Below are positions 912 to 63,258 of a stretch of 64,000 nt of DNA, one piece after another. How positions within the stretch are numbered: position 1 is the stretch's first letter; each line of letters begins with the position of its first letter. Below the pieces are notes generated by a model. That model searched no databases, was not told the DNA's origin, and saw only the letters and a program-made list of their open reading frames with translations. Origin of the DNA: Desulfosporosinus acidiphilus SJ4 (GTDB lineage Bacteria; Bacillota; Desulfitobacteriia; Desulfitobacteriales; Desulfitobacteriaceae); NCBI RefSeq assembly GCF_000255115.2, contig NC_018068.1, positions 4,435,977 through 4,499,976 of the forward strand, given 5' to 3'. The position numbers and the translations under genes are program-made.

Positions 912-3839
912 TTAGGACTTAACAACGGTATACGTCGTAGTGGTTTGGTTGGCATTAGATAAGGACAGTGTCACTGTATTGGGACTTGTCATTACTAATT
1001 CCAGCAGAGCTCCGTAATCAATTGTGTTGCTGAGATTCGTGGATAAAGCCACTTGGTAGATAACGGCACAATCCAGGTAAACAAGGTCTTTATTGGCTGA
1101 TGGTAAACTGTCCACAGAGGTGAACAGAGCTGTAAAGTTTATGGCTGTGTATACAGCCCCTTTATTTGGGGAGGTACGCAAGACACTAAACAGTTGTTGA
1201 AAATCAAGATTGCTGAAGAACGCATTCATTTGATTTGAGCTGCTCAGCGTCGCGACAGCGGTTGCCGAGGTTGAGGAAGACAACAATTGGGCGGCGGTTA
1301 CACCTGTGGGAGTCGGCAAGGCATTTAAGGCATTATCAATAATTGAACTGATACTTGTCTGGGTATTCACATCAGCCGCTGCATATATTCCCGGTAGATT
1401 TAGAGCCTGATAAAATGAATTTGCTGCGCTTGTATTTTTCCCTTGACTCATAATATCAGCCAGCGCATTATACACTTTTTGTTTATCCGTTGTTGATAAG
1501 CCTTGAGCTGCAGTCAGAAGCGCCTGGAAATTTACTGCACTAAAAATTTGAGAGCTGGTGATTTGTGAGGCTTTTAAGGCCTTAAGAGTATCAATCAGGT
1601 TCAGATCGGAAGCATTGCTCACTGAAAGGATATCGTTGCCTGCGGATTTCGATAGGTTCCAGGACCCAAGATTATATTGGGTACCATTTCTCGTCACTGT
1701 AATTTTCATCGTTGAATTTTGATCCACGGATATAATTGGTTCTTTAAAAGCTCCTGAGGCGATCGTTATCTGAGTTCCGCTGACAGTGGCAGCAGATCCT
1801 CCGGTGACACCACTGATAATAGACGTTACTTTTGGTGCCGGCGTCGTCACGGTTTGACCTCCCGGAACACTCTGCCCGCCTACTGAGGCACTGCCGGCCG
1901 AATTCGAAACAGTCGTTGAAACGGGAGATTGTTCGATGGTCGTTCCGCTGGCATTAACCGTCACGTTCTGGATAGCCCCCGAACCGGTGACACCGGTAGC
2001 AGCATTCAGAGTCATGGTATCTACCGATGCTGCTGAATCCATGCTGATAGCGGTGCTTGGTGCAGAGCTATCGACTGTAATCGTATTTACTGAACCACCA
2101 TGTATCGTGACTTGAGCCGTCGCTTGGATGTCAAGTTGTCCGATACTTCCCGAACTCATCGAGACGGAAGGACTGCTGACCCCTTGGGAAACGGTCAGGG
2201 AGGTAACTGTTCCTCCTGTCACATTCACCGAGCTTCCGGCCGCACTTTGACCCAAAGAAAGGTTTGACACGGTTCCACTGGGAACAGTGACTGAAACGCC
2301 TGGGGCTTCTATCGTGACATCTGTGAAATCTCCTTCAAGATCAATGCCTTTATCAGTCCCGGAAAGGGTCATCACTGTCACCTTGCCAAACGTAGTACTT
2401 GATCCGGTGTCATTTTCCAATGTTGCCCCGGACTGTACCTGAGAACTTGCGATGCTCGTACTTCCCGCAGCAACGATCCGAACATGACCGTCTTGTCTGA
2501 TAACAATCAATGTTCCAGATAATGTCGAATTTGAGATATGAATACTATGTTCTCCTCCGCCGTAGACTGTTGTTTGTCCTGCGATGGTGACATTATCCAA
2601 GTAGACGTCTCCATCTCCGACAGCCGCAGAGATTTCCAAATTTCCGCTAATGTACATATGCTGAAGATGGATTCCCTGTGCAGTGATCTGAACGTTACCC
2701 GTCACGGTTTGTGTACCGGTAGTCGGTCCGATGGTCGAATTGGCTGTACCATAGACTGTTGTGGAGGTGCCACCGCCATTACTACCGCCACCGCCGCCAC
2801 CACCTACAGCACCGCCTCCGCCTCCACCTGCGCCACCGCCGCCGGCGGGAGCAGTATACACTATGCTTGAGCGGACACCTTCAGGTACCACAGCAGTCCC
2901 GCCCAAGGCGCTGACGACGCTGTTGGCATTAAGTTTAGTTTTTACATATTGGGTACCCTCATTGGCTTCGCCGTTAGTGAGCACAATGCCGGCCTTGTAT
3001 TTTGCTGCCAGAGGTGCTCCTGCCAATGCGTCAATGGCCGTTTCACCGTTCGCAATAAAGACGTGGTCATATTTTAATACGCTGTCAAATGCTTTTAAAA
3101 CAGCAAGGTTTGTATCGTAAGCACTCGTCCCATAATAACGAGCAGCCTTCGGCAGCTGATCTTTCACCTCATCACTGATTACGCCGGTTCCGCCAATCAC
3201 ATCGGTGGATTTAACACTCGTGTTGTTCGCCAAAAACTCCTGAACGCTTGCTGGAATGGAATCTTTCTCTGTCAAGAGAATGGGTTCAGTTTGCGCAGCG
3301 GCGATAGAGGCTATGGAAAGAGCATCTTGATTCTTCCATCCAAAGGCCACCGCAGCTTTTTCAACCTTAGCACCGAGCTCTACCATTTTATTGGCAATAT
3401 TTACTGAGGTTGCGAAGCGGTCAACTCCTCCCAGAGGAACAACCGTTATGCCCATCCCCGTTAATTCATCAAGAACACCCTGACTGATAACTCCTGTTCC
3501 GCTGGTGACATAAACCTGCGTAACTTTGAGTTTTGTTAACTCTGCTTTTGTGTCGGGATTTAAGGCATCTCCCGCATCTGTCAAAAGGATCGGCGCTTTA
3601 AGGTAAGCAGCAAGGGGACCGGCGGTCAAGGCATCAACCATGCCATAGGATGTTGAAGAAGCTAGGATCGCAGTACCGGACCATCCGGTCTGTTCAGCAA
3701 TCTGTACCGCAGTTTGTGCCGCAGTGTCTCCGGCAATACGTGTCGGGAACGTGTTCGCCGCCAGGACATTTAAAGGAACAAAGGTTAGTGCCATAGTTGC
3801 AATAGCAAACGTTGCTACAGCCTTTCTGATTCTTGTCAT
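912..3839 (-). CDS. Large secreted CWB2 protein with Gly-rich linker and repetitive beta-rich region
   Basis: Predicted S-layer-like or wall-bound protein of about 975 residues. The chosen ATG (3837-3839) has an AGAGGAGA ribosome site; an ATG 14 codons further upstream has none. Order: signal peptide ending near NVLAA; three CWB2 repeats to about residue 325 (RIAGDTAAQTA, LGGVDRFATSVNIANKM, VIGGTGVISDEV); a linker of almost pure glycine; a roughly 350-residue Thr/Ser/Val-rich region with short repeating strands (SGTVSNLSLGQ, GGTVTSLTVSQG type) that looks like a beta-solenoid; and a C-terminal helical segment of unknown kind. CWB2 modules are established wall anchors. The function of the C-terminal two thirds is not recognised. 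Codon use looks native. Confidence 0.88.
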   Translation of the reverse strand: MTRIRKAVATFAIATMALTFVPLNVLAANTFPTRIAGDTAAQTAVQIAEQTGWSGTAILASSTSYGMVDALTAGPLAAYLKAPILLTDAGDALNPDTKAELTKLKVTQVYVTSGTGVISQGVLDELTGMGITVVPLGGVDRFATSVNIANKMVELGAKVEKAAVAFGWKNQDALSIASIAAAQTEPILLTEKDSIPASVQEFLANNTSVKSTDVIGGTGVISDEVKDQLPKAARYYGTSAYDTNLAVLKAFDSVLKYDHVFIANGETAIDALAGAPLAAKYKAGIVLTNGEANEGTQYVKTKLNANSVVSALGGTAVVPEGVRSSIVYTAPAGGGGAGGGGGGAVGGGGGGGSNGGGTSTTVYGTANSTIGPTTGTQTVTGNVQITAQGIHLQHMYISGNLEISAAVGDGDVYLDNVTIAGQTTVYGGGEHSIHISNSTLSGTLIVIRQDGHVRIVAAGSTSIASSQVQSGATLENDTGSSTTFGKVTVMTLSGTDKGIDLEGDFTDVTIEAPGVSVTVPSGTVSNLSLGQSAAGSSVNVTGGTVTSLTVSQGVSSPSVSMSSGSIGQLDIQATAQVTIHGGSVNTITVDSSAPSTAISMDSAASVDTMTLNAATGVTGSGAIQNVTVNASGTTIEQSPVSTTVSNSAGSASVGGQSVPGGQTVTTPAPKVTSIISGVTGGSAATVSGTQITIASGAFKEPIISVDQNSTMKITVTRNGTQYNLGSWNLSKSAGNDILSVSNASDLNLIDTLKALKASQITSSQIFSAVNFQALLTAAQGLSTTDKQKVYNALADIMSQGKNTSAANSFYQALNLPGIYAAADVNTQTSISSIIDNALNALPTPTGVTAAQLLSSSTSATAVATLSSSNQMNAFFSNLDFQQLFSVLRTSPNKGAVYTAINFTALFTSVDSLPSANKDLVYLDCAVIYQVALSTNLSNTIDYGALLELVMTSPNTVTLSLSNANQTTTTYTVVKS

Positions 3840-4440
3840 TTGTTGGGATTCTCCTCTCAACCCTCTTCTTAACTTTTTCATTTATGCGAGGTGACTTTTT
3901 CCATTCACACTCCGGACGCAGCTAACCGTCCCTCACCTCCTTAAAATAAATCTATCCTTTCCGGTAATAGGGTAAAAGTATAATACCGAAGATGTGAAAT
4001 TTTTCACCCATTGTCCATCCAGATATACATGAAATTATTCTTTATATATTTAAGAAAATCCTGCTAAGTCTTGCCAAACTTTTTATTTAAAGTCAATAAA
4101 ATTGACCTACTGCAGAAATAATTGCACTTATAATAATGTATTTGCTTTACATTCTTTAAATTACGATTAATATTTAAAAATACACTTATTTTACGCTATA
4201 TTTAAATAAATATATTTTTATTCTGACAAATTTCCATTTAATTGACTCAAAATATTGTCAAATCCTTTTAATTTCCTTAAATTTCTTGCGAACACAATAA
4301 TATATTCTTTGTTTTTGTTGTAATCGACTCTTGTCATGTTATTGCTACAAAATACAACATTTTAATTGGGTTAGTATAGAAAACTTAACAGGTATCTAGG
4401 CTCTGACACCTGCCGCTGGTTATACGATTTTCATCCTATC
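3840..4440. other. AT-rich intergenic region upstream of the CWB2 gene
   Basis: No convincing ORF on either strand. On the minus strand an AAGGAGGTGA sequence near 3943-3952 starts a five-codon GTG reading frame. It lies upstream of a TCACCTC near 3890 that could pair with it, so a small leader hairpin controlling the CWB2 gene is possible but weakly supported. The part from about 4030 to 4370 is very AT-rich and featureless. Confidence 0.4.
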
Positions 4441-4659: not shown

Positions 4660-4683
4660 TACAAAAAGAGGCCGAAGCCTCTT
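4660..4683 (-). terminator. UUCG-capped terminator at the rng stop codon
   Basis: On the minus strand AAGAGGC-UUCG-GCCUCUU runs straight into a U run. The stem begins at the last base of the rng TGA stop (4683-4685), so transcription is expected to end right at the end of rng. It would prevent read-through to rplU-type genes, and none follow. Confidence 0.85.
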
Positions 4684-5969
4684 CATACCCTCCCGCTTCC
4701 CTCACAAGTGGGACAGGGTGACGTATAGCGAACGGCCAAGGTCTGGCCGACTTTCTTCCGTGTCATTTCCACTAAACCTAGCTGAGTAAGTCCCAGAATC
4801 TGAGACTTTGTTTTATCCCGCGCACAGGCCTCTTCCAAAGCATCGATCACTCGCTCCTGATCTTCCTTCGCTGCCATATCAATAAAGTCAATGATGATAA
4901 TTCCTCCGAGATTTCTCAAGCGCAGCTGCCGGGCTATTTCCCGAGCCGCTTCCAAATTAGTATGGGCCACCGTTTCTTCCAGAGAACGTTGTCCCACATA
5001 TTTCCCAGTATTCACATCAATGACAACAAGAGCCTCCGTTTGCTGGATCACCAGATAGCCGCCGCTTTTCAGCCAGACCTTTGAGCGTAAGGCTTTCCGT
5101 ATTTCATCGTCTATACCATATTGAGTAAACAGACTTTCCCCCGGTACGACTAAGATTCGTTTCGCCGCCGGATGTTCAATTTCACGTAAGGCTTGACGCA
5201 GAGTCTCAGCGGTTTCCTCCTGATCAACGGTAATTCTCTCCACATCCTGATCAATCCAATCCCGGACTAGGCGTGAAATCAAATCAACATCCTTATGTAC
5301 TAATCCGGGAACAGAGACATGGGGAATCTTACGCTCTAAAGCTTGCCAAGTTTTAACCAACTGATCAATATCTTCGGCAATTTCCTCACCGTCAATCCCC
5401 TCCGCTAATGTACGAATAATCACACCCATCCCGTCAGGTTTAGCTTTCTCGGCCAACCCTTTCAATCTCTCCCGTTCCTGGCCATCGCTGATCTTCCGGG
5501 ACACACCGATATAACTTACCTGAGGAAGAAGGACCACATATCTCCCAGGCAGCGTAAGATTGACACTAATCCGCGCCCCCTTCGTGCCCACAGGTTCCTT
5601 ACTGATCTGAACCAAAAGTTCCTGCCGAGGCTTTAAGAGGTTCTCAATCCGTTCTTGAATAACCGAAGTACTCTTTTCCTCTTCCTCATAACGGGAAGGA
5701 GAAGGAATCACATCCCCCACATAAAGAAAGGCATTCTTCTCTAAACCAATATCCACAAAAGCCGCCTGCATCCCGGGCAAAACATTCTCCACCCGCCCGC
5801 GATAAATATTCCCCACCAAATGAGAAGAACCATCCTCATCCTCAAAGACATCCATCAATTCACCACATTCAAACACAGCCGCCCGAATCCTTTGAGATTT
5901 CCCTTTAGCATTCGGCTCACTTTGCAGAACCAGTTCCTTCTTACAAGTCCCCGAGTTTTCAAGTTTCAT
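4683..5969 (-). CDS. rng: Ribonuclease E/G family endoribonuclease (RNase G)
   Basis: Single-strand-specific endoribonuclease of RNA processing and decay. The start ATG (5967-5969) follows AGGAGGTG; a longer frame 14 codons upstream lacks a site. About 428 residues. An S1-like domain (NIYRGRVENVLPGMQAAFVDIG) occupies roughly residues 55-125. The catalytic DNase I-like core has VVIDVNTGKYVG and IIIIDFIDM, which carry the metal-binding aspartates. The Zn-link CPTC is near the C-terminus. The protein stops only about six residues after that motif, shorter than many homologues, so the small C-terminal domain is absent. In clostridia rng usually precedes rplU; here it ends a cluster and is followed by terminators. 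A 0.9-kb structured non-coding block separates it from its upstream neighbour. Confidence 0.9.
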   Translation of the reverse strand: MKLENSGTCKKELVLQSEPNAKGKSQRIRAAVFECGELMDVFEDEDGSSHLVGNIYRGRVENVLPGMQAAFVDIGLEKNAFLYVGDVIPSPSRYEEEEKSTSVIQERIENLLKPRQELLVQISKEPVGTKGARISVNLTLPGRYVVLLPQVSYIGVSRKISDGQERERLKGLAEKAKPDGMGVIIRTLAEGIDGEEIAEDIDQLVKTWQALERKIPHVSVPGLVHKDVDLISRLVRDWIDQDVERITVDQEETAETLRQALREIEHPAAKRILVVPGESLFTQYGIDDEIRKALRSKVWLKSGGYLVIQQTEALVVIDVNTGKYVGQRSLEETVAHTNLEAAREIARQLRLRNLGGIIIIDFIDMAAKEDQERVIDALEEACARDKTKSQILGLTQLGLVEMTRKKVGQTLAVRYTSPCPTCEGSGRV

Positions 5970-6043
5970 ATCGGATTTACACCTCCTAAGAGAACTTGCG
6001 TTACCACGCAACCTTGCATGCTCTCGCAGATCAAACTAGGACC

Positions 6044-6202
6044 CAAGAGCTTGAAAATTAGCGGGCGGGGTTCCCGGCATATCGGACATCCGACGGCTAG
6101 GACGGCCTAGTGTCCCCGGAGCCACGGATGGCGGGAGGGGACCCTGTCCGAATGCCGGCAGTGTACGTCCAGTACACTGCCCCGCTTATGAAAGCGCTCT
6201 TG
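6044..6202. ncRNA. GC-rich multibranched fold-back module (module 0)
   Basis: Nested complementary arms: CAAGAGC (6044-6050) with GCTCTTG (6196-6202); AGCGGG near 6060 with CCCCGCT (6180-6186); CCGGCAT/TCGGAC (6074-6087) with GTCCGA/ATGCCGG (6146-6158); and a perfect 10-bp hairpin GGCAGTGTAC/GTACACTGCC (6157-6166, 6172-6181) on one side, its first two bases shared with the preceding arm. The region is much richer in GC than the flanking genes and has no plausible ORF. It precedes two related-looking palindromic units. Whether it is a transcribed RNA or a mobile DNA palindrome cannot be settled from sequence alone. Confidence 0.5.
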
Positions 6203-6308
6203 AGTCAAGTTTGATAGCTGCTTGATCAAAGAAGGTCGCTTTTGTAAGCGCGAAGTTCTAAGCTAATTCTGCCCCGGTATTCCTAATAAGAAGTCTTAAG
6301 AAATACTT

Positions 6309-6589
6309 GCAAGAATACCCGAGCACCACCCGAGCTTCAGAGCGAGGGGCGCGATCACCGGCGTGAAACCTTTGCGGGAGCCGCTGCCAAACTCGGCTTT
6401 AAATTCTCATTCATCCAGCAGGGCGGGAAACTGGACGTTTCCCGCCGGCCAAGCGTCAAGGATGACGCTTTGGCCGGGAACCCTGCCCTCTTCCATTAAG
6501 AATTTAAAGCCCTAGTTTGGCGGGGCGAGCGCACGGTTGAACAAGGTGACGTGCCACTCCGCTCCCGAACATTCCCAACTGGAATCCAA
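6309..6589. ncRNA. Structured tandem repeat, copy A (candidate ncRNA or palindromic element)
   Basis: First of two 281-bp direct repeats. The whole unit folds. P1 pairs 6340-6359 with 6545-6564. P2 pairs 6386-6407 with 6499-6521 in about 21 bp, with only a small asymmetric interruption. Inside are a 10-bp hairpin (6422-6431/6437-6446) and a hairpin 6447-6457/6464-6475. Against copy B, the P2 core changes AAATTCT/AGAATTT to AACCCCT/AGGGGTT and the distal hairpin changes AGCGTC/GACGCT to TGCGAC/GTCGCA, with pairing kept each time. One P1 pair is G-U if read on the plus strand, a weak hint of plus-strand transcription. No coding gene overlaps. The family is not recognised. Confidence 0.6.
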
Positions 6590-6855
6590 GCAAGAATACC
6601 CGAGCGCCACCCGAGCTTCAGAGCGAGGGGCGCGATCACCGGCGTGAAACCTTTGCGGGAGCCGCTGCCAAACTCGGCTTTAACCCCTCTTGCATCCAGC
6701 AGGGCGGGAAACTGGACGTTTCCCGCCGGCCTTGCGACAGGGATGTCGCATAGGCCGGGAACCCTGCCCTCTTCCGTAAAGGGGTTAAAGCCCTAGTTTG
6801 GCCCGGCTACTGCACGGTTGAACAAGGTGACGCGCCCCTCGCTCCCGAGCAGGAC
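6590..6855. ncRNA. Structured tandem repeat, copy B (candidate ncRNA or palindromic element)
   Basis: Second copy, offset by exactly 281 bases from copy A and nearly identical outside the covarying stems. P1 is 6621-6640 with 6826-6844 (19 bp, one bulged A), P2 is 6667-6688 with 6780-6802, and the distal hairpin is 6727-6738 with 6745-6755. P1 is perfectly Watson-Crick here but contains mismatch or wobble changes in copy A. The copy ends about 18 bases before the stop codon of the DUF2344 gene. Because both neighbouring genes run on the minus strand, an operon transcript could also pass through it. Confidence 0.6.
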
Positions 6856-6872
6856 CCAATACTAGCTCGCCC

Positions 6873-7574
6873 CTACTCCGCAAGCAGCTCGAACGGCGAA
6901 CTCTTCGTCCCCTTATAAGAAATATGCACACCCGTCCGCTTAACCCTTAACCCATCCAAATCCAACGGCAAGTTCTCCAACTCCCTCAAACTGCCGAGAA
7001 CCTCCTCCGGCCGGACGCTCCCTGCATTCCCGATCTCAACCTCCAACTCGAAGACAAGCTCATCCCCATGAACTTCCCCTTTAAGACTCTTAACCCAGGG
7101 ACGAATGTCCTTATCTGTCGGTCCTTTCTTCGAATAGCGGGAAAAGGTCACATGTCCCCGTGCTAACCAAGCCTTAATCGCTTCCTGCAAACGCTCCTCC
7201 TGAACCGGCAGAGCCATAGGAACCCGCATCTTATAGCTCGCAGCATTCAGAACGGCCATTAACGGTTTAGCTCCTATGGTTAGAAACTGGCCCTGCAATA
7301 AACGGATTCCGGGAGGCAATTGTTCCTGAATTCGACCTAAGACCTCGGTCAATTCAAGATCCCGGTCCAACTCAATATCCACATATTCTCGTTCCCCTTC
7401 GGTTCCCACTGCCAGAGCAAAACCAAAAGAGATTTTCGGCCGGGGGTTAAATCCTTCCGTATAGGACATTTTAATCCCTGCCCGCCGAATAGCGCGTTCA
7501 AACACCCGAGTCAAATCCAGATGGGCAATAAACTTAGCATCTTCCTTTTTGGTATAGGCGATTCTCAGCCGCAT
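6873..7574 (-). CDS. TIGR03936 family radical-SAM-linked protein (DUF2344)
   Basis: Member of the DUF2344/TIGR03936 family, which occurs next to, or fused to, a particular radical SAM protein in Firmicutes; its biochemical role is not established. The sequence opens MRLRIAYTKKEDAKFIAHLD and has the family stretch YTEGFNPRPKISFGFALAVG at about residues 39-58. It ends with GVHISYKGTKSSPFEL. ATG at 7572-7574 has AAGGG eight bases upstream. A GTG three codons earlier overlaps the upstream stop (GTGA) and would give translational coupling. It directly follows its radical SAM partner, which supports a joint function. Confidence 0.88.
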   Translation of the reverse strand: MRLRIAYTKKEDAKFIAHLDLTRVFERAIRRAGIKMSYTEGFNPRPKISFGFALAVGTEGEREYVDIELDRDLELTEVLGRIQEQLPPGIRLLQGQFLTIGAKPLMAVLNAASYKMRVPMALPVQEERLQEAIKAWLARGHVTFSRYSKKGPTDKDIRPWVKSLKGEVHGDELVFELEVEIGNAGSVRPEEVLGSLRELENLPLDLDGLRVKRTGVHISYKGTKSSPFELLAE

Positions 7575-7579
7575 GGCAC

Positions 7580-9436
7580 TCACCCTTTCAAATCAATCTG
7601 AACCCCTCTGCCCGGGCAAATCCCGCACCCGGTACAGACATCATACCGACAATCAATGGTCCTGGCTTCATCTAAGGCCCGGTGATGTTCTTCTACCAAG
7701 AATTGTTTCGTCACTCCGCTTTCTAAATGCTCCCAAGGCAGGATATCATCGTAATCCATAACCCTGTTGGCATAAAAATGAGGATCGATGTCTAATTCTT
7801 TAAAGCCTTGCATCCAAGTTTCCTGATCAAAATGTTCAGACCAACCGTCAAAACGACAACCATGTTTAAAGGCCCATTCCAATAGAGGAGCCAAGCGCCG
7901 GTCTCCCTTGGCAAATACCGCCTCCATATAGCTGGTCTGCATGTCGTGATAATTATATTTTATCCGCCGATCCTTAAGTTTATCTTTAAGATACTTCTGC
8001 TTCAGCTCGACGGAAAGATGTGCTTCCTGAGGTTCCCACTGAAACGGAGTGTGGGCCTTGGGAACAAAAATACTTGTAGAAACCGTCACGTTAACATTGC
8101 GGCGGCCCAACTGGGTTCCCAAATTGGCGACCTTTTTCGCCAAATCCGCAATCCCGTCAATATCTTCCTGAGTTTCCGTAGGCAGTCCCATCATGAAATA
8201 CAGCTTAATATTGGACCAACCCTTTTGAAAGGCAGCTCCTACAGCGGCCAAAAGGTTTTCCTCCGTAACTCCTTTGTTAATGACATTTCTCAAGCGCTGA
8301 GACCCGGCTTCCGGGGCGAAAGTCAACCCGGATTTGCGGGCTTTCTGAATCGACTCAGCGAGATCGACATCAAAAGAGTCCACACGCAGGGAGGGCAGGG
8401 AAACCCCCACTCCTTCGGGACTATGCTTTTCCATAATCGCCTGAATCGTCGGTTGGATACAGGAATAATCGCCGCTGGAAAGAGAAGTCAGGGCAATTTC
8501 ATCATAGCCTGTGGAACGAACCAATTCTTCCGTTTGTTTAAGCAGGGTATCTGTTGATCTCTCCCGCACCGGGCGGTAAATCATGCCCGCTTGACAAAAA
8601 CGGCAGCCCCGGGAACAACCGCGCATCACTTCCAACATCATCCGGTCATGAACGATTTCCATATACGGGACAATGGGCTTCGTCGGGAAAAAGGCCTGAT
8701 CGAAATCAACCACAATCGCTTTCTCCACCACAGCCGGGACACCGGGCTCCGCCTTGATCTCGTCAATCCGACCGTCCTGCTTGTAAGATACATGGTAGAA
8801 ATCCGGAACGTACACTCCTTGAACTTGGGCCACTCGCAGCAGAAACTCCCGGCGAGGCAAGGGGTGCTTCTTCTGTTCATTCATCAAGCGCAGGACTTCC
8901 GGCAGCTGTTCTTCACTTTCCCCCAGCAAGAAGAAATCAATAAACCCGACCAGGGGTTCAGGATTGAAGGCACAGGGACCTCCGGCAATAATCCACGGAT
9001 CGTTCTCTCCCCGTTCCTCACAGCGGAGCGGAATCCCCGCTAAATCGAGCATATTAAGAATATTGGTGAAACTCATTTCGTATTGCAGTGTAAAGCCAAC
9101 CACATCAAAGGTCTTCAGCGGCTGAAAAGATTCAAGGGTATATAAGGGAAGATTTCTTTGCCGCAGCATTTCCTCCATATCCACCCAGGGAGCAAAAACC
9201 CTTTCGCAGAGGAACTCCGGAATGGAGTTTACTAAATGGTAAAGAATCTTGGTTCCTAGATGAGACATTCCTACTTCATAGACATCGGGAAAAGCAAAGG
9301 CCATGTGCACTTCGGTTTGATCCCAGTCCTTTTTTATAGCGTTCCACTCCGACCCCAGGTAACGGCTCGGCTTCAAAACTTTAGGCAAAAACATTTCCAC
9401 CTGCCGGCGCAATTCCGCAGCAGTAAGTTCACTCAT
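7580..9436 (-). CDS. TIGR03960 family B12-binding/radical SAM protein
   Basis: Radical SAM enzyme of about 618 residues whose substrate is unknown. The N-terminal part resembles a B12-binding Rossmann domain (MAFAFPDVYEVGMSHLGTK). The radical SAM core has the cluster motif CSRGCRFC (CxxxCxxC) near residue 275. Later conserved stretches include LTFAPEAGSQRLRNVINKGV and YFMMGLPTETQEDI. The C-terminus carries a second cysteine cluster, CRYDVCTGCGICPGRG, which could hold an extra Fe-S centre. ATG at 9434-9436 follows GGAGG. It overlaps or abuts the DUF2344 gene downstream; both sit between the spoIVFB-like gene and rng, as in other clostridia. Confidence 0.9.
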   Translation of the reverse strand: MSELTAAELRRQVEMFLPKVLKPSRYLGSEWNAIKKDWDQTEVHMAFAFPDVYEVGMSHLGTKILYHLVNSIPEFLCERVFAPWVDMEEMLRQRNLPLYTLESFQPLKTFDVVGFTLQYEMSFTNILNMLDLAGIPLRCEERGENDPWIIAGGPCAFNPEPLVGFIDFFLLGESEEQLPEVLRLMNEQKKHPLPRREFLLRVAQVQGVYVPDFYHVSYKQDGRIDEIKAEPGVPAVVEKAIVVDFDQAFFPTKPIVPYMEIVHDRMMLEVMRGCSRGCRFCQAGMIYRPVRERSTDTLLKQTEELVRSTGYDEIALTSLSSGDYSCIQPTIQAIMEKHSPEGVGVSLPSLRVDSFDVDLAESIQKARKSGLTFAPEAGSQRLRNVINKGVTEENLLAAVGAAFQKGWSNIKLYFMMGLPTETQEDIDGIADLAKKVANLGTQLGRRNVNVTVSTSIFVPKAHTPFQWEPQEAHLSVELKQKYLKDKLKDRRIKYNYHDMQTSYMEAVFAKGDRRLAPLLEWAFKHGCRFDGWSEHFDQETWMQGFKELDIDPHFYANRVMDYDDILPWEHLESGVTKQFLVEEHHRALDEARTIDCRYDVCTGCGICPGRGVQIDLKG

Positions 9437-38960: not shown

Positions 38961-39215
38961 AAAAACGCTTTCCATCCTGATAAAGGACGAAAAGCGATCG
39001 TGGTACCACCTTATTTCAGTGAAACAACCTTACAGCATGGCATTTCACTCTCATTTACCTAACGGGTTTTCCGTCAGAAAGTACTCCGTTCCCCTCTGCC
39101 CCTCCTGTGCGACCCAAGCACTTTACCGTAAAGACCTCTCAGCTCCTAGTCTTTTCTCTGAACGGTATCCTGATGCTATTCCTCACAATCACCGGGTTTA
39201 CCAATATTTGATTTG
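38961..39215 (-). promoter_or_regulatory. T-box riboswitch upstream of valS
   Basis: The minus strand shows the universal T-box tail AAGGTGGTACCACG (complement of 38999-39010), followed by a terminator whose arms CGCTTT and AAAGCG (38965-38996) lead into five U residues (38961-38965). The preceding 200 bases fit Stem I and the later stems. Uncharged tRNA(Val) is expected to promote read-through into valS. I did not resolve the specifier codon with certainty. Confidence 0.92.
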
Positions 39216-63172: not shown

Positions 63173-63258
63173 TGTTCGGTAGCTTGGCAATCATCAGCAA
63201 TGACTGGAAGACCCATAGCTTTGCGTCCTTGGCCTTCGCCAAGTTTGCCTTTGCTGCT
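63173..63258 (-). promoter_or_regulatory. Cyclic-di-GMP-I (GEMM-I) riboswitch upstream of the Big_2 gene
   Basis: Minus-strand sequence matches GEMM-I landmarks in order: GCAAAGGCAAACTTGG, a GAAG tetraloop-like apex (GGCGAAGGCC), GGACGCAAAGCTATGGGTCT, a second hairpin, and GCCAAGCTACCG. The GGACGCAAAGC and GCCNAGCTACCG segments are the c-di-GMP pocket and the tetraloop receptor. It lies 68 bases upstream of the transglutaminase/Big_2 start, so surface-protein expression is probably controlled by c-di-GMP. Confidence 0.92.

Follow-up and report, generated by a model that had tools for sequence, protein, structure and literature searches.

What is the structured, repeated DNA that fills the spacer upstream of the RNase E/G family gene in Desulfosporosinus acidiphilus SJ4? 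Within the 64,000-nucleotide stretch analyzed here (the window), this spacer separates rng (4683-6011, minus strand) from a DUF2344 gene (6873-7583, minus strand), which adjoins a radical SAM gene (7580-9436, minus strand). An initial annotation described two tandem 281-bp units at this site and proposed an undescribed noncoding RNA or a palindromic element. A repeat search of the window bore out the tandem arrangement; the direct repeat 6302-6559/6583-6840 has a spacing of 281 bp and an identity of 89%, with unit 1 at 6302-6582 and unit 2 at 6583-6851, both on the plus strand. A genus covariance model (R1), built from 53 Desulfosporosinus copies including both window copies, matched the structured core of copy 1, comprising helices P2 and P3 and two hairpins, at 6373-6532 (G000:C3:4442349-4442508, plus strand; 163.5 bits) and that of copy 2 at 6654-6813 (G000:C3:4442630-4442789, plus strand; 165.7 bits). 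While the two tandem copies thus stood, a third had been overlooked. This copy (core 6019-6228, minus strand; R1 match G000:C3:4441995-4442204, 111.3 bits, and fold) is inverted and adjoins rng, lying between the tandem units and that gene in the rng leader, and its second hairpin loop is interrupted by an insert of about 50 bp (6092-6141 by alignment and sequence, with boundaries approximated by eye). A motif search found the motif of this insert in other Desulfosporosinus copies. Elsewhere in the window, a T-box leader (38980-39201, minus strand; 94.9 bits) and a c-di-GMP-I-GGC riboswitch (63174-63258, minus strand; 63.4 bits) both scored above their Rfam cut-offs, and a 989-aa open frame with a glycine-rich stretch and serine/threonine-rich repeats was seen by eye at 912-3881 on the minus strand.

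The helices can be traced in both tandem units. Helix P2 of copy 1 (6386-6521, plus strand) has arms at 6386-6407 and 6499-6521, as judged from the inverted repeat, the sequence and pair counts; within it, 6395-6407 (GGCTTTAAATTCT) pairs with 6499-6511 (AGAATTTAAAGCC), and the corresponding arms in copy 2 are GGCTTTAACCCCT and AGGGGTTAAAGCC. P2 of copy 1 holds a three-pair AT to GC exchange relative to copy 2, so that the change of three adjacent pairs from A-T/T-A/T-A to C-G claimed in the initial annotation is present in the sequence, as is the swap it reported in the distal hairpin (AGCGTC/GACGCT to TGCGAC/GTCGCA). The closing stem P1 of copy 2 (6621-6844, plus strand) is formed by the perfectly complementary arms 6621-6634 and 6831-6844. 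Hairpin H1, identified from the sequence and its inverted repeat, lies at 6422-6446 in copy 1 (loop CUGGACG, with GGA at 6433-6435) and at 6703-6727 in copy 2 (the same loop); hairpin H2, identified from sequence and fold, lies at 6447-6475 in copy 1 (loop CAAGGAUG, with GGA at 6460-6462) and at 6728-6756 in copy 2 (loop CAGGGAUG), all on the plus strand.

Pairing is also maintained across Desulfosporosinus, a genus of sulfate reducers. Among the 53 genus copies, both sides had changed in 28 of the 43 consensus pairs (19.0 in shuffles) and 98.2% of cells paired (82.4% in shuffles); none of 500 shuffles reached the observed both-side changes or paired cells, and the covariation score was 0.416 compared with 0.132 in shuffles. 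The number of pair types gave a weaker signal (54 versus 50.1 in shuffles, equalled by 25 of 500 shuffles). When the partner was slid by 1-3 columns, pairs with both-side changes fell to 2-9 and paired cells to 29-50%. The kind of compensation is unusual: the cores of 94 distinct copies contained 766 alternative Watson-Crick, 33 G-U (0.8%) and 18 A-C cells among 3988, compared with 8 alternative Watson-Crick, 73 G-U (9%) and 1 A-C among the 814 cells counted for Desulfosporosinus SAM riboswitches, a contrast that is indicative rather than proof because the SAM sequences, at 90% identity, have diverged much less than the element. This near-absence of wobble is an indication that pairing may be kept at the DNA level, through selection or template-switch correction. 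The earlier preference for selection on pairing as the simplest explanation was right as to true covariation but too strong with regard to RNA, as few G-U pairs would also fit the upkeep of a DNA palindrome.

With regard to family, no Rfam model reached its gathering score at the repeat region in an Rfam scan. The closest relationship was to TwoAYGGAY (RF01731; Weinberg 2010), whose matches in copy 1 (6379-6528, plus strand) and copy 2 (6662-6807, plus strand) scored 34.5 bits (E 0.0017) and 32.2 bits (E 0.0058), below the gathering cut-off of 43 bits. Both alignments nevertheless span model positions 1-168, end to end, through the same helices, and a paralogue in the same genome (C3:4380948) reached 48.3 bits. 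Copies above the cut-off were found in 22 of 29 Desulfosporosinus genomes, with matches at E up to 0.01 in 26 of 29, and RF01731 matched none of 14 control genomes. Since these above-cut-off copies bridge the window units to RF01731, the units belong with TwoAYGGAY; because they themselves score below the cut-off, they are classed, by sequence comparison, as a divergent Desulfosporosinus branch and not as strict Rfam members. The strict A-Y-GGA-Y form in both apical loops is absent from the window copies, in which the GGA is retained. The possible match to a known Rfam family, which the initial annotation had named as a refutation, is thus borne out as full-length homology and falls short for the window copies in score, and the label "undescribed" is not supported. 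An undescribed RNA family unrelated to anything in Rfam would be in keeping with the lack of a gathering-score match at the region, but is scarcely credible next to the full-length matches and the paralogues that pass the threshold, both in this genome and in the genus, and it was rejected on account of the bridging copies.

The expectation that homologues exist elsewhere was confirmed. At E up to 1e-6 and with 102 candidates scored per genome, the genus model found 1-54 copies in 28 of 29 Desulfosporosinus genomes, and none in the csrA-positive genome G028. A duplication confined to a single locus was ruled out by these copies and by those across the window's own genome. Two subtypes could be distinguished among 62 full-length copies by the letters that follow CAAACT, with 42 copies of type A, the window type, and 20 of type B. 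The branch shares with TwoAYGGAY the helix order over 168 positions and the two apical GGA-loop hairpins on the same strand; it differs in the sub-threshold score of the window copies, in keeping CAAACU/AGUUUG at the base of P2, in reaching up to 54 copies in one genome and in lacking the plus-strand folding bias found in 27 of 30 copies from other families. No published account of TwoAYGGAY multiplication in Desulfosporosinus was found in the open-licence literature. The Rfam entry labels RF01731 as Cis-reg, while a passage of PMC2864571 rates the motif as likely to be RNA and unlikely to be cis-regulatory. Bacillaceae-1 RNA (RF01690), which a passage of PMC4333381 proposes as CsrA-binding together with TwoAYGGAY, also resembles the element in reverse complement through two neighboring GGA hairpins; its match over the copy 2 hairpins (minus strand, 18.9 bits, E 0.88) is sub-threshold, and the likeness is confined to the apical part with a score at chance level. 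Inspection by eye of two TwoAYGGAY copies from other families (L207 and L217) showed near-identical terminator-like hairpins on both sides.

TwoAYGGAY was proposed in 2014 as a CsrA-binding and CsrA-sequestering sRNA (in a passage of PMC4333381), and the loops of the Desulfosporosinus branch were compared with CsrA recognition sites. Among the 94 distinct genus copies, the H2 loop was CANGGANG in 85 and CAGGANG in 2, and the H1 loop was CANGGANG in 50 and CAGGANG, with N absent, in 31; both loops had the form CA(N)GGANG in 75 copies. The gap between the two GGA motifs, measured in 75 copies, was 24 nt in 67. The N position of H2 is free while the remaining loop letters hold the CsrA form. Published work gives a SELEX consensus of RUACARGGAUGU for CsrA and contacts to an ANGGAN hexaloop for RsmE (PMC7652899, PMC3791407), and PMC7652899 states that a CsrA dimer bridges sites 10-63 nt apart, a range that includes the 24-nt spacing. 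The two window copies both have the 24-nt gap; their H2 loops (CAAGGAUG and CAGGGAUG) match the recognition form and their H1 loop (CUGGACG) does not. SELEX hairpins mostly have four or fewer contiguous pairs according to PMC7652899, and the hairpin stems of the element are longer than most of these. Two or more such motifs were present in 29 of 30 copies from other families, compared with 18 of 3000 shuffles, a count that is partly circular as these copies were selected by a model already carrying GGA loops. Like CsrB, CsrC, RsmY and RsmZ, the element presents GGA in hairpin loops that in most copies are of, or close to, the ANGGAN type, and its two sites are near enough for a single CsrA dimer to bridge. 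CsrB carries many CsrA sites per RNA, whereas the element has two sites per copy and many dispersed copies; it also differs from these RNAs in that it has no promoter signal and in that its host also has FliW.

The genome that contains the window encodes csrA (C3:4010597), adjacent to fliW and with a flagellin gene nearby. In a phylum sample of 398 genomes, RF01731 was found in at least 39 and csrA in 292; csrA was present in 37 of the 39 carriers compared with 255 of the 359 other genomes (Fisher p 0.0009, uncorrected for kinship), and the two carriers without csrA (G241 and G433) belong to one family. Six candidates per genome were scored in this sample, in which the window's own genome was negative, so that absences are unreliable. 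Within a class sample, an RF01731 match was found in 34 of 69 csrA-positive and 2 of 13 csrA-negative genomes. A first count, which found a match in 0 of 7 csrA-negative genomes that were at least 90% complete, had suggested that the element occurs only in csrA-bearing genomes. This idea is weakened, and the link to csrA is not exclusive, because the csrA-negative genomes G013, G023, G024 and G025 carry 3, 1, 3 and 1 copies according to the genus model.

Tests of which strand might be transcribed gave conflicting answers. The excess of G-U over A-C cells in the core of the 94 distinct copies (33 versus 18) favors the plus strand; by subtype, full-length type A copies had 16 G-U and 7 A-C cells and type B copies 9 and 11. 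Predicted folding energy favored the minus strand in 74 of 98 Desulfosporosinus copies and the plus strand in 23. By the same measure, all 26 SAM sequences preferred the plus strand, as did 27 of the 30 TwoAYGGAY copies that came from other families. G-U pairs in predicted folds were also rarer on the plus strand than on the minus strand in Desulfosporosinus (1.4% and 5.9%), compared with 8.8% and 6.7% in SAM sequences and 3.1% and 2.5% in other families. Because the core G-U count points to the plus strand and the folding energies and predicted G-U to the minus strand, the strand was left uncalled for Desulfosporosinus. A consensus scan revealed no promoter enrichment upstream of the copies (plus-strand match in 4 of 79; shuffles mean 8.6), and consensus scans of window positions 5950-6950 found no sigma-70-like site and no plus-strand terminator-like site. 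Three terminator-like sites were found around the window copies (shuffles mean 1.4), all on the minus strand, including one between the two tandem units at 6616-6598. These consensus scans lend no support to an independent sigma-70 sRNA unit that ends at a terminator of its own.

Placement was analyzed for 124 loci (L001-L124), which hold 109 distinct copies among the matches listed, these being the best matches, with 88 scoring at least 60; the neighbor statistics are based on long open frames in place of gene calls, and some of the loci counted are orthologous and so not independent. Among the matches listed, 87 copies scored above 60 and lay outside predicted open frames, and their downstream neighbor ran opposite to the element in 65 cases, in the direction of the element in 15 and was uncallable in 7. 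Similarly, an opposite-strand stop codon lies no more than 110 nt from the end of 58 of 88 copies among the matches listed, and these 58 adjoin 29 groups of unrelated open frames, some of them short and doubtful. Nine adjoining genes were checked and encode an RNA methyltransferase (PF04452, rsmE), a LeuA dimer domain, Lon, a CDP-alcohol phosphatidyltransferase, a histidine biosynthesis protein, a ribosome-binding GTPase, PhoH, SMC and an SRP signal-peptide-binding domain. The subtypes differ in placement, again among the matches listed: type B has an opposite-strand stop 10-45 nt past the core in 26 of 32 copies and none in 6, and these stops are TAG in 15, TGA in 11 and TAA in 0, while type A has a stop in 32 of 56 copies, usually at a greater distance (46-110 nt in 23), and 10 of these 32 stops are TAA. 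For comparison, the long open frames at the SAM loci of Desulfosporosinus end in TAA in 29, TAG in 8 and TGA in 8 cases. Many subtype B copies (e.g., L034, L043 and L059) appear by eye to have a similar extra hairpin a few tens of nt upstream, near GACGGTGCACATGAAATGTGCCGTC.

Two sites allowed comparison among genomes. Of the 24 readable loci next to rsmE, 17 contain the element, in every case antisense to that gene, and because the same site is occupied so often, many copies are not recent insertions. The other 7 loci include two with a remnant (L181 and L188), one with a weak diverged match (L192), one that is ambiguous (L185) and three with no trace (L179, L180 and L197). Where the site is occupied, the copy lies between rsmE and a co-directional neighbor; at L180, where the site is empty, 26 nt separate rsmE from the next gene, which runs in the same direction. 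In the rsmE loci L174, L176, L177, L187 and L191, another kind of insert, some 60-70 bp long (CATCCTTCGGCGATAGT...ACTATCGT), was seen at the junction before the hairpins. Upstream of rng, for which 24 of the 29 genus genomes had a match, at least one copy was found at 14 of 24 loci, which contradicts the earlier impression that most relatives have nothing of this size there. The spacer to DUF2344 measured 343-1227 bp at 16 of 20 measurable loci, and some genomes have a copy in the sense of rng plus copies antisense to DUF2344 upstream of rng. In the window genome, 16 sense copies were found (19 matches minus 3 weak antisense echoes), 14 of them on the plus strand. All 16 lie within 77-98.6% of the chromosome, counted from a start near dnaA (p 1e-4 for 8 clusters), a region on one side of the origin (G000:C3 3.80-4.86 Mb) that makes up about one fifth of the chromosome and also holds fliW-csrA. 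Long inserts inside a GGA loop were found in 4 of 94 copies for H1 and 7 of 94 for H2, and the recurring-insert motif occurred in 14 of 124 loci, which overlap in part.

The most economical account of these data, in which we place moderate confidence, is that the units represent a candidate CsrA-binding and CsrA-titrating RNA element of the Desulfosporosinus branch of TwoAYGGAY that has multiplied. Its observed basis comprises the homology and structure of the element, its number of copies, the form of its loops, their spacing and the co-occurrence with csrA; the last three are what favors CsrA. We infer plus-strand transcription, CsrA binding and titration from this basis. On the plus strand, the long closing stem and the second stem would hold up two hairpins, the loops of which would present GGA motifs spaced by 24 nt in a form equal or close to that recognized by CsrA/RsmE; a single copy could then be clamped by a single CsrA dimer, and transcribed copies would bind and titrate CsrA alongside the genome-encoded antagonist FliW. 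The window copies would be weaker variants because their H1 loop (CUGGACG) is without the loop A, and that only their H2 matches the loop form counts against the reading. Further points against it are the missing promoter signal, both upstream of the copies in general and around those in the window, the antisense orientation of most copies among the matches listed to their adjoining gene, including the rsmE copy, the disagreement among strand tests in the genus, the presence of copies in csrA-negative genomes with none in the csrA-positive G028, and stems longer than most SELEX hairpins (PMC7652899). That no promoter signal was found, that copies mostly lie antisense, that the strand tests conflict and that compensation proceeds almost without wobble pairs would instead favor either a DNA repeat or a 3' element in the sense of the adjoining gene.

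REP/BIME and ERIC sequences are intergenic palindromic repeats, and intercistronic REP/BIME or ERIC hairpins affect mRNA. The element resembles these and MITE-like repeats in being dispersed, palindromic and located in spacers at gene 3' ends, and differs in its longer covarying two-hairpin architecture and conserved loop letters. That it is a palindromic DNA repeat of the MITE or BIME kind, which would multiply by tandem duplication, insertion beside stop codons and nesting, with pairing kept by selection on cruciforms or single-stranded hairpins or by template-switch correction and with RNA being incidental, is a serious rival that we regard as less probable than the CsrA reading. It would explain why GC/AU exchanges occur with so few wobble intermediates, the 0-54 dispersed palindromic copies per genome among 29 genomes, the tandem copies and the inserts of about 50 bp nested in hairpin loops, the position of type B just before opposite-strand stops that are never TAA (among the matches listed) and the confinement of the 16 window-genome copies to one part of the chromosome, but it would leave unexplained the CsrA form of the loop letters around a free N in H2, the near-constant presence of csrA in carriers of the phylum sample, the shared occupation of the rsmE site and the RNA-like plus-strand folding of copies from other families, and its wobble argument relies on a SAM control much less diverged than the element. 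Less probable again, and in our view unlikely, is a cis element of the gene-sense mRNA, in which the reverse complement would follow the stop codon as a large hairpin that stabilizes or delimits the upstream mRNA or uncouples neighboring genes. The opposite-strand downstream neighbor in 65 of 80 callable copies and the proximity of stops (both among the matches listed), the position between co-directional genes at rsmE, the better folding and greater predicted G-U of the minus strand, and the minus-strand terminator-like sites around the window copies are all consistent with this function; the GGA loops and the Rfam family on the other strand, the excess of core G-U over A-C on the plus strand and the opposite orientation of some copies, including the inverted window copy in the rng leader, argue against it.

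A multiplied CsrA-binding RNA thus remains our preferred reading, and it can be combined, with a low likelihood that we set a little above that of the cis element, with spread of the repeat itself: a regulatory TwoAYGGAY may have turned into a palindromic repeat that spreads to sites next to stop codons and within its own loops, with dozens of copies forming a genomic sponge. More generally, the nearly wobble-free compensation seen here is a caution that covariation by itself need not imply a functional RNA. According to a passage of PMC4333381, CsrA-sequestering RNAs had been identified only in Gammaproteobacteria by 2014, and a passage of PMC7652899 treated the joint action of FliW and CsrA-sequestering RNAs in any species as an open question in 2020. 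If true, a self-multiplying decoy would represent a joint sponge of dispersed CsrA clamps in a Firmicute that also uses FliW. With csrA, fliW and 16 found candidate clamps in the window genome, and up to 54 copies per genome in the genus, the question of whether FliW and RNA act together becomes directly testable in Desulfosporosinus.
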